Source: Serratia inhibens
GTDB lineage: Bacteria > Pseudomonadota > Gammaproteobacteria > Enterobacterales > Enterobacteriaceae
Assembly: GCF_003591175.1 (NCBI RefSeq)
Contig: NZ_QYYG01000001.1
Location: 1-64,000 of the forward strand
Direction: 5' to 3'
DNA length: 64,000 nucleotides
The translations under genes were made by a program, and so were the position numbers. Positions 10,667 through 41,914 of this stretch are shown piece after piece. The notes under the pieces were generated by a model that did no database searches, was not told where the DNA came from, and saw only the letters and a program-made list of their open reading frames with translations. Numbering within the stretch: the first letter of the stretch is position 1; each line of letters starts with the position of its first letter.

Positions 10667-10785
10667 GCCCGTTGAACGCGGGACAACAACCTCACTTAGG
10701 GTACGGCCGGACGCCCGCATTAACTTGCGGAGCCCTGTGGCAGGGGCGTGCCATTTATAAACCGTAAGTAGTGGAGAAGGTATTA

Positions 10786-11427
10786 ATGAAAAACTGGAAA
10801 ACCAGCGCAGAACAAATCCTGACGGCAGGCCCGGTGGTTCCGGTCATTGTGATCAATAAACTGGAACATGCGGTGCCGCTGGCCAGGGCGCTGGTCGCCG
10901 GTGGTGTTCGCGTGCTGGAGGTGACACTACGTACCGCCTGCGCCATGGAGGCGATCCGCACCATCGCCCAAGAAGTGCCGGAGGCGATTATCGGCGCAGG
11001 TACGGTGATTAATCCCCAGCAGTTGCAAGAAGTGACTGAGGCCGGTGCGCAATTCGCTATCAGCCCAGGCCTGACCGAGGCGCTGCTGAAAGCCGCTACC
11101 GCAGGAACCATTCCGTTAATTCCGGGCATCAGCACCGTTTCAGAGCTGATGTTGGGCATGGATCACGGGTTGCGCGAATTCAAGTTCTTCCCTGCAGAAG
11201 CCAACGGCGGCGTGAAAGCGTTGCAGGCTATCGGCGGCCCATTCCCGCAGGTGCGTTTTTGTCCGACCGGTGGCATCACGCCGAATAACTACCGAGATTA
11301 CCTGGCGCTGAAAAGCGTGCTGTGCATCGGCGGATCCTGGCTGGTGCCGGCCGATGCGTTGGAGATCGGCGACTACGAACGCATCAGCGAACTGGCGCGC
11401 AGCGCCGTCAAGGGCGCTGCGTTGTAA
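10786..11427 (+). CDS. eda: KDPG/KHG aldolase (Eda)
   Basis: Class I aldolase cleaving 2-keto-3-deoxy-6-phosphogluconate to pyruvate and glyceraldehyde 3-phosphate; it also acts on 4-hydroxy-2-oxoglutarate. The 213-residue protein equals E. coli Eda. The Schiff-base Lys is in [12 protein letters not shown], with the substrate-binding segments VLEVTLRT and [10 protein letters not shown]. The ATG at 10786 follows GGAGAAGG. In E. coli edd lies between zwf and eda; here only 154 bp separate them and no edd is present, so KDPG must come from edd elsewhere or from hexuronate breakdown. Confidence 0.97.
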
Positions 11428-11680: not shown

Positions 11681-11779
11681 ATGATGAAACTTAATGGAAC
11701 CACCCTCAAAACCTCTACTTGCCAACTTTTCCTGTCTGCCATCCTTGCCAGTGAGCATCACTGGTGCAGCGAGCTATAG
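11681..11779 (+). CDS. Putative regulatory leader peptide of mdtJI (mdtU-like)
   Basis: A 32-codon ORF (start MMKLNGTTLK, end ASEHHWCSEL) located 200 bp before mdtJ, with a TAGAGA ribosome site 6-9 bp before its tandem ATGs. In E. coli a short upstream ORF named mdtU has been reported to make mdtJI expression respond to polyamine; I cannot compare residues from memory, so equivalence rests on position, size and context. Five bases after its stop codon lies TTTCTCCC, the exact complement of the mdtJ ribosome site (see 11784-11975), which supports a role in translational control. No other gene is visible between eda and mdtJ. Confidence 0.6.
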   Translation: MMKLNGTTLKTSTCQLFLSAILASEHHWCSEL

Positions 11780-11783
11780 CGTC

Positions 11784-11975
11784 TTTCTCCCTTAACCGGT
11801 GCTGGTGACAGGCTCAGTCCTTCGTCATTCCGCGTAGCCGGGCAAACATTTTTATTACGTTTGGGTCAGTTTATCCCCAGGGATCTCTGCGTCGTCAGCG
11901 CCTCGTTGCGCCTGTCCGACGAGATAAATCGGGATAAATATGCCTTAGCGTGCGTTATTCGCCGTTTGGGAGAAA
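11784..11975 (+). promoter_or_regulatory. Anti-Shine-Dalgarno / Shine-Dalgarno pair in the mdtJ leader
   Basis: TTTCTCCC (11784-11791), starting 5 bases after the leader ORF stop, is perfectly complementary to GGGAGAAA (11968-11975), which contains the mdtJ ribosome site. The helix can extend imperfectly, pairing AA..CGG downstream of the first element with CCG..TT upstream of the second. Ribosome occupancy of the leader stop would cover the first strand and free the mdtJ start. The C/T-rich stretch between could also serve Rho. Confidence 0.5.
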
Positions 11976-11979
11976 AATC

Positions 11980-12348
11980 ATGATTTATTGGATCTTTTTG
12001 GGTTTGGCTATCGTGGCCGAAATTATCGGTACTCTGTCAATGAAATACGCCAGTATCAGCGGTGGCATGACCGGTCATATTGTGATGTATGTGATGATCA
12101 CCGCTTCTTACGTAATGTTGTCGCTGGCGATAAAACGCGTCGCCCTTGGCGTGGCTTATGCGCTGTGGGAAGGCATCGGTATCCTGTTTATCACGCTGTT
12201 CAGCGTATTGTGGTTTGATGAGCCGATCTCTGCGTTGAAAGTGTTGGGTCTGGTGACGCTGATTGCCGGCATCATGCTGGTGAAGTCCGGTACCCGCAAG
12301 GATCGAAAACAGGTCAGCCCGCGAGGTGACAACCATGCAACAGCTTGA
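11980..12348 (+). CDS. mdtJ: Spermidine exporter subunit MdtJ (SMR family)
   Basis: Small multidrug resistance family protein that with MdtI forms a heteromeric inner-membrane exporter of spermidine. It has 122 residues and four hydrophobic segments, with the SMR membrane-embedded Glu in [15 protein letters not shown] and the conserved [18 protein letters not shown]. The ATG at 11980 has GGGAG at 7-bp spacing; a GTG at 11950 lacks a site. It overlaps mdtI by 14 bp, implying coupled translation. The leader holds a short ORF and an anti-SD element, so it is probably translationally regulated. Confidence 0.95.
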
Positions 12349-12664
12349 GTTGTACCACATCGGGTTTCTGGCACTGGCGATTGTCTTGGAAATTGTCGCC
12401 AACATCTTTCTGAAAATGTCGGACGGCTTCCGTAAAATGTGGATGGGTCTGTTGTCTCTGCTGTCGGTGTTGGGCGCGTTCAGTGCGCTGGCGCAGGCGG
12501 TGAAGGGGATTGATCTGTCGGTGGCCTATGCGCTTTGGGGCGGTTTCGGTATTGCCGCGACCATTGCTGCCGGTTGGATCCTGTTCGGCCAGCGGCTGAA
12601 TGCCAAGGGCTGGATCGGCCTGGCGCTGCTGTTGGCGGGCATGGTGATTATCAAACTGGCTTAA
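12335..12664 (+). CDS. mdtI: Spermidine exporter subunit MdtI (SMR family)
   Basis: Partner of MdtJ in the spermidine efflux pair; 109 residues, as in E. coli. It has four transmembrane segments, the SMR Glu in [16 protein letters not shown], and the highly conserved [18 protein letters not shown]. The ATG at 12335 has a GAGG site; the GTG at 12326 lies within that site. It begins inside the end of mdtJ (14-bp overlap). A bidirectional terminator follows. Confidence 0.96.
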
Positions 12665-41699: not shown

Positions 41700-41806
41700 G
41701 TCGGTGAGGGAGAAAAAGGGTTGTCTCCTTGTGTGCCACCCAAGCCGGCAAGACATTGCTCACATTGCTTCCAGTGTTTGTTGCCAGCCTCGCGCTGGCA
41801 TTTTTT
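41700..41806 (+). ncRNA. ryhB: Iron-stress small RNA RyhB
   Basis: The core ACATTGCTCACATTGCTTCC (41753-41772) is identical to the conserved pairing region of E. coli RyhB. It is followed by a terminator stem TGCCAGC (41782-41788)/GCTGGCA (41794-41800) and six T, as in E. coli. The 5' part differs and is a little longer, giving about 107 nt from the predicted start near 41700. RyhB works with Hfq to shut down mRNAs for iron-using proteins when iron is scarce. A Fur box overlaps its promoter. It is adjacent to foxA here. Confidence 0.95.
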
Positions 41807-41914
41807 ATGTCTTTCATTTCAGATCATTAACCCCCAACCTACCCATGGATTTTCAACTGCGATGACACACGTCGCCGGTTCATAAAAAGCGCCCTCTATT
41901 TGAAATTACCTATC

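Follow-up and report, generated by a model that had tools for sequence, protein, structure and literature searches.

The 32-codon open reading frame upstream of mdtJ in Serratia inhibens is, as judged by sequence comparison, an ortholog of Escherichia coli mdtU (ydgV), the leader of the mdtJI operon. The comparative analysis of mdtJ-anchored leaders outlined a conserved C-terminal end in the encoded peptide, a UAG stop codon in all the leaders read and, at a fitting distance past this stop, a tract that co-varies with the mdtJ ribosome site. These features point to a mechanism, to which we assign a probability of roughly two in three, in which arrest of the MdtU-translating ribosome at UAG under high polyamine covers the anti-Shine-Dalgarno (anti-SD) tract and frees mdtJ for translation.

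The mdtUJI leader in Serratia inhibens and Escherichia coli

In the window, the whole stretch of 64,000 nucleotides of S. inhibens DNA analysed here, the leader and its operon present the following features:

11681..11779, + strand: mdtU (ydgV) leader ORF, 32 codons from the ATG at 11681, encoding the 32-aa peptide MMKLNGTTLKTSTCQLFLSAILASEHHWCSEL; ortholog of NC_000913 mdtU b4777
11750..11776, + strand: C-terminal motif S-E-H-H-W-C-S-E-L (Trp codon 11762-11764, final Leu codon 11774-11776)
11777..11779, + strand: mdtU stop TAG (UAG), identical in all leaders read
11784..11791, + strand: anti-Shine-Dalgarno tract TTTCTCCC, +5 to +12 past the mdtU stop; predicted duplex with 11968-11975, with covariation across genera
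11794..11801, + strand: candidate extension of the pairing (AA, CGGTG) with 11960-11966, from duplexfold
11869..11877, + strand: 5' arm GTTTATCCC of an inner helix in the Serratia spacer, pairing with 11931-11939 in 14/14 aligned Serratia
11931..11939, + strand: 3' arm GGGATAAAT of the inner helix, partner of 11869-11877
11968..11975, + strand: mdtJ ribosome site GGGAGAAA, which can pair with 11784-11791
11980..12348, + strand: mdtJ (ATG 11980), spermidine/multidrug efflux SMR subunit (NCBIfam NF007767, 178.6 bits, cut-off 122)
12335..12664, + strand: mdtI, partner subunit (NCBIfam NF007934, 186.7 bits, cut-off 103)

Both MdtJ and MdtI score above their NCBIfam equivalog cut-offs. The 32-aa MdtU peptide did not return any match in NCBIfam, and no Rfam family was detected at the mdtU leader when the window was scanned with gathering thresholds. 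Elsewhere in the window, a KDPG-aldolase RNA motif (Rfam RF03115, 71.7 bits) was located at 10700-10777, directly upstream of a 218-aa ORF (10771-11427) that we take to be eda, and a RyhB sRNA (Rfam RF00057, 60.9 bits) at 41744-41807.

A first-pass annotation of this DNA had described a 32-codon ORF ending at 11779, which is correct to the base (11681-11779, stop TAG), followed by an exact complement of the mdtJ ribosome site 177 bp upstream of it. Four bases separate the mdtU stop from TTTCTCCC, which is indeed the exact complement of GGGAGAAA (11784-11791 against 11968-11975), with 177 positions from the last base of the former to the first base of the latter. The suggestion that this pairing can extend also holds, the 8 bp being joined by AA/TT and CGGTG/CGCCG in a duplex of -18.5 kcal/mol; in the full fold, CCGG pairs locally instead of extending the anti-SD duplex.

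The same annotation had mentioned a reported leader ORF for E. coli mdtJI. This ORF is ydgV, renamed mdtU upon demonstration of its translation (Adams 2021, eLife, PMC7815308). As reported there for E. coli, the mdtU start codon is required for spermidine induction of both mdtJI RNA and MdtJ protein, Rho terminates within the mdtJI leader, a Rho mutation lowers spermidine induction, and the MdtU C-terminus is kept in at least 17 genera. The Discussion of that work predicts that the mdtJ ribosome site base-pairs with the mdtU region, and its authors call for further study of mdtU mechanisms; the words UAG, RF1, release factor and anti-SD are absent from its main text. Other reports indicate that mild acid stress raises mdtU (PMC10746267), that inhibition of Rho by Rof leads to a fast rise of mdtJI mRNA (PMC9765468), that AcrR binds the mdtUJI promoter (PMC9769551) and, from PIRT-Seq in E. 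coli, that translation in the mdtU frame may start further upstream (PMC12350097).

With the E. coli mdtUJI system and the pairing idea in print, both the system and the core hypothesis were already known, and the anti-SD arrangement is not the new concrete mechanism that the first-pass annotation took it to be (Adams 2021). The present comparison adds, at the sequence level, the family-wide covariation of the tract with the mdtJ ribosome site and the use of UAG in every leader read. The Serratia and E. coli leaders share the same downstream genes, an orthologous uORF with an HWxxxL end and a UAG stop, and a predicted interaction of the mdtJ ribosome site with the mdtU region. They differ in the length of the spacer (106 nt in E. 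coli versus 200 nt in Serratia), in the extra conserved helix found in the Serratia spacer and in the N-terminal half of the peptide, which shows little resemblance between the two.

Peptide end and stop codon across mdtJ loci

Leaders were collected using mdtJ, rather than the leader itself, as the anchor, and were hence not selected for the features they display. The resulting 224 mdtJ-anchored loci comprise 143 loci including the window, E. coli MG1655 and 80 named records overlapping the first set; they yielded 177 distinct leaders, and the 144 loci formed by the 143 and E. coli MG1655 were grouped into 59 genus groups. Peptide ends were searched with a pattern consisting of Trp or Ser, three codons, Leu, Phe or Arg, and any of the three stops, so that no stop codon was preferred. 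The residues flanking the Trp and the last residue (Leu or Arg) were additionally filtered, with criteria chosen after inspecting the leaders, and at least 19 open-frame residues were required.

An MdtU-like peptide end was identified upstream of mdtJ in 224/224 loci, not all of them with intact ORFs: 222 were found by the pattern, making up the 177 distinct leaders, and two by eye. Of the latter, L055 ends in NWSAER followed by TAG, and L193 presents the usual end and TAG, but with an in-frame stop just ahead of its last 18 codons. Besides L193, the usual end is also found in the broken leader L050, in which no in-frame ATG was read and which probably belongs to the same genome as L189; intact relatives of these leaders exist.

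Among the distinct leaders, the W-x-x-x-L end is present in 175/177; taken singly, the final Leu and the Trp at the fifth position from the end are each conserved in 176/177. The exceptions are L122, with a final Arg, and L049, a locus of a Sodalis endosymbiont without the Trp; in the leader of this endosymbiont (L049 and L188; SEQYSCGGL) TAG is kept in spite of the lost Trp. Leu is encoded by six different codons across the leaders, and His and Glu by two each, and this synonymous variation indicates that it is the peptide, not the RNA, that is conserved. Conservation of the peptide frame in relatives, a check that the first-pass annotation had proposed, is thus borne out.

The mdtU stop is TAG in 177/177 distinct leaders and in the two loci missed by the pattern, bearing in mind that these counts, like those of the peptide end, were made without a tree on leaders that are related and hence not independent. 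In 81 of these loci, mdtI ends in TAA (56), TGA (21) or TAG (4) and mdtJ in TGA (66) or TAA (15). TAG closes 4/46 long ORFs of the window and 5/60 CDS, mdtU included, of a 50-kb stretch of E. coli. UAA and UAG are both read by RF1, and UAG by RF1 only. Leaders using UAG exclusively are the pattern that would be expected from RF1-specific arrest, since RF2 would be able to release the ribosome at UAA or UGA and the leader would thereby be locked to UAG. Whether MdtU is an arrest peptide working only against RF1 is, on this pattern, an evenly balanced proposition. Peptide-level conservation of the C-terminus and a constrained stop codon, two of the features used here to recognize metabolite-dependent arrest peptides, are both found in MdtU. 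A full-text literature search returned no paper linking mdtU with RF1, and none combining mdtJI with 'arrest peptide'.

SpeFL, the leader peptide of speF, has been reported to inhibit RF1 (PMC8429421). The 43 SpeFL leaders read (L236-L265 and L268-L280) stop at TAG (24) or TAA (19) and never at TGA, in agreement with the reported target; two of them (L259 and L271) continue beyond the usual end. The stop of Salmonella orf34 is printed as UGA in a figure legend of Ben-Zvi 2019 (PMC6386406).

Other origins for the conserved end and stop were considered. Amino-acid attenuation by a codon run was rejected, given that the peptide contains a single Trp and no run. As for a conserved overlapping frame imposing UAG, the +2 frame over the last 26 codons contains a stop in 48/61 representatives; the +1 frame contains one in only 16/61, so that this count spares a +1 overlap, but the free third codon positions speak against it. 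An MdtU paralog elsewhere in the same genome was also rejected (best other match E 1.62). A search for MdtU in other families of the class, spanning 369 genomes, produced seven matches with E <= 0.01, namely the window itself and six partial, unconvincing ones (E 0.0025 to 0.0098). L138, an mdtJ locus found via mdtJ in a genome of another family, keeps SEHHWRNAL-TAG; its post-stop region presents no convincing anti-SD (-4.9 kcal/mol). L195, labelled Serratia marcescens, encodes an MdtJ with only 69% identity and is listed beside Symbiopectobacterium records, and its species label may be wrong.

Predicted pairing of the post-stop tract with the mdtJ ribosome site

Pairing was evaluated between the 22 bases immediately past the stop and a 25-base segment whose 3' end is the mdtJ start codon. 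A tract within the ribosome footprint that pairs and co-varies with the ribosome site, as would be expected of a leader-controlled anti-SD switch, is indicated in most leaders, with duplex energies of -10 or better in 168/177. Eight of the nine distinct leaders with weaker pairing (L049, L091, L095, L112, L117, L138, L222, L224 and L232) retain the Trp, the Leu and UAG, suggesting that the pairing may be dispensable.

Using one leader for each of the 59 genus groups, cognate segments showed a mean energy of -14.98 versus -11.55 for permuted ones, with 0/20000 permutations as good, and across 29 disjoint nearest genus pairs the cognate combination was favoured in 26 and not in two, with one tie (26/28 informative pairs); the pairs were picked by sequence distance, not on a tree, and the permutation tests ignore relatedness. 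The same trend was observed with 61 representatives (cognate mean -15.26, permuted -12.02, 0/20000 as good), for which shuffled tracts yielded -9.16. We rely on the 29 genus-level pairs rather than on an earlier set of 88 disjoint pairs (55 for, 18 against), which repeats contrasts such as Serratia-Yersinia. Matched changes are exemplified by L101, where the unusual tract CTTCACAAAAC is found with GTTTTGTGAGG, by L098 (CCTTCTAGAT with ATCTAGAGGG) and by L122 (TTTCTCCGT with ACGGAGAAA). The proposed check that the paired segments compensate in relatives was run and did not refute the pairing.

The pairing is not equally distinctive everywhere. For 17/59 genus groups, over 5% of the shuffled tracts equal the natural tract in pairing with the ribosome site. 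The best-pairing window starts between -8 and +6 of the stop in 43/61 representatives and elsewhere in 18/61, and the tract has its own ribosome site as best partner in only 5/61 (median rank 9 from best). When the 181-nt spacer of the window was dinucleotide-shuffled 20000 times, the octamer appeared anywhere in 204 shuffles and at one of the first 12 start positions in 16. Furthermore, the octamer is not fixed in Serratia: two of 14 aligned sequences present a C-A mismatch, and the ribosome site is changed in AKBS12. RNAalifold on these 14 Serratia detected changes on both sides in 4/76 pairs, none of them in the anti-SD helix, where the changes affect one side only and some rows are mismatched. 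Serratia alone hence does not prove the pairing, and the support from covariation comes from other genera.

The bases pairing with positions -14 to -7 of mdtJ peak at +7 to +13 past the stop, with 69% falling within +11 and 89% within +13. A ribosome with a stop codon in its A site covers approximately 10-12 bases beyond the stop, and one halted on the mdtU stop would cover most of the tract. The effect of such covering was modelled by excluding from pairing the 18 bases preceding the stop codon, the codon itself and the bases as far as +11, with control masks more than 20 nt away. With this stop mask, the mdtJ ribosome site became more accessible: its unpaired probability, averaged over the 61 representatives, went from 0.156 to 0.276 (0.175 for masks elsewhere), and that of the window went from 0.19 to 0.44. 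It raised openness in 48/61 representatives and was the single best mask in 12/61; in the window, 5/36 other masks did as well. As modelled, the folding test weakly favours masking.

In the window, the mdtJ ribosome site has a modelled probability of 0.77 of pairing with the post-stop region. As a whole, 11681-12020 folds with ordinary stability (z -0.47), while the segment between the stop and mdtJ that the anti-SD/SD helix closes is unusually stable (z -2.63, with 1/200 shuffles as stable). The 9-bp inner helix (11869-11877/11931-11939) is conserved in 14/14 aligned Serratia and, being almost invariant, is without covariation support. The distance from the mdtU stop to mdtJ ranges from 89 to 484 across leaders. 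Several Yersinia-type leaders (L037, L038, L178, L179 and L182) harbour extra sequence between mdtU and mdtJ, with the stop 290 to 484 bases upstream, and keep the peptide end, UAG and the post-stop tract.

Proposed mechanism and alternative explanations

In the mechanism that we propose, the ribosome would by default translate mdtU, terminate at UAG and depart; the CU-rich tract past the stop would then pair with the mdtJ ribosome site, leaving mdtJ untranslated, and Rho would end transcription. Under high polyamine, the C-terminus of nascent MdtU (W-x-x-x-L) would block RF1-mediated release, and the arrested ribosome would stay on UAG, covering about the first ten bases past the stop. With the tract covered, pairing would be prevented, the mdtJ ribosome site would be free and the pump would be made; the covered anti-SD tract may, in addition, load Rho. 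The requirement for mdtU translation in spermidine induction and the action of Rho in the leader have been shown in E. coli (Adams 2021, PMC7815308), and we infer the arrest, RF1 as its target, polyamine as its ligand and masking as the switch. The first-pass annotation had likewise suggested that ribosomes at the leader stop free mdtJ. The peptide end, the covariation and the position of the tract fit this suggestion; on the other side, the pairing was not new, the octamer is variable and Rho, which acts in the E. coli mdtJI leader, had been omitted.

Two known leaders provide points of comparison. Like the MdtU leader, the speFL/orf34 leader of speF encodes a leader peptide of the polyamine pathway and carries a CU-rich tract facing the ribosome site of the downstream gene; in Salmonella this tract has been proposed to serve as Rho site and anti-SD together (PMC6386406). 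Ribosome pausing at the stop and Rho would also be shared, for MdtU as proposed here. The systems differ in that SpeFL is another peptide, with ornithine as its ligand, in the use of TAG or TAA by the 43 SpeFL leaders versus TAG only in MdtU, and in the position of the tract, which lies before the stop in speF and after it in MdtU. For speF, Ben-Zvi 2019 (PMC6386406) disputes direct covering and argues that the stop-paused ribosome alters the progress of RNA polymerase, the speF site then being inaccessible. In that account the paused ribosome leads to a closed speF site, and this argument calls for caution on the covering step proposed here. The TnaC leader of tnaAB shares with MdtU, as proposed, a ligand-dependent termination arrest with Rho acting downstream; in contrast, TnaC stops at UGA, blocks RF2 and masks a rut site past its stop rather than an anti-SD (PMC8429421).

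The main rival to the proposed mechanism takes TnaC as its precedent (PMC8429421): the stalled ribosome would only cover a Rho-loading site, with the CU-rich tract kept for Rho and its pairing a by-product of a purine-rich partner. In E. coli, where Rho acts in the leader, spermidine induction is lowered by Rho mutation (Adams 2021, PMC7815308), mdtJI mRNA rises quickly when Rof inhibits Rho (PMC9765468), the speF tract has been assigned both roles (PMC6386406), and there are leaders with weak pairing and an intact peptide end. Nonetheless, the observed covariation exceeds what CU-richness would generate, with cognate segments favoured in 26/28 informative genus pairs and L101 combining the unusual CTTCACAAAAC with GTTTTGTGAGG, and we regard this rival as unlikely, if a serious contender.

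Two further explanations bear on the sensor and on the pairing itself. Spermidine could bind and reshape the leader RNA, translation of mdtU merely clearing structure; it has been reported to alter RNA structure, for instance in oppA (cited in Adams 2021, PMC7815308), and the inner helix is conserved in the Serratia spacer. Sensing by RNA alone is, however, improbable: the peptide is conserved despite synonymous codon changes, the stop codon is kept as well, and the spacer ranges in length from 89 to 484. Chance complementarity, whereby any CU tract near an SD resembles an anti-SD, would accommodate the 204/20000 shuffled spacers containing the octamer somewhere and the 17/59 genus groups that are unexceptional against shuffles. 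We deem it very improbable: only 16/20000 shuffles place the octamer at this position, most genus groups show such pairing close to the stop, accompanied by compensating changes, and both the permutation and the pair contrasts disfavour chance.

In E. coli, the control of spermidine export by mdtU is known. For the way in which the leader senses and switches, the constant UAG and the co-varying tract provide two sharp tests, one on the stop codon and one on the matched paired segments. If MdtU indeed acts only against RF1, polyamine export and, via SpeFL, polyamine synthesis would both be gated by a block of RF1 at a leader stop; with RF1 as the target, two polyamine genes would share one type of gate, operated by different ligands and peptides.
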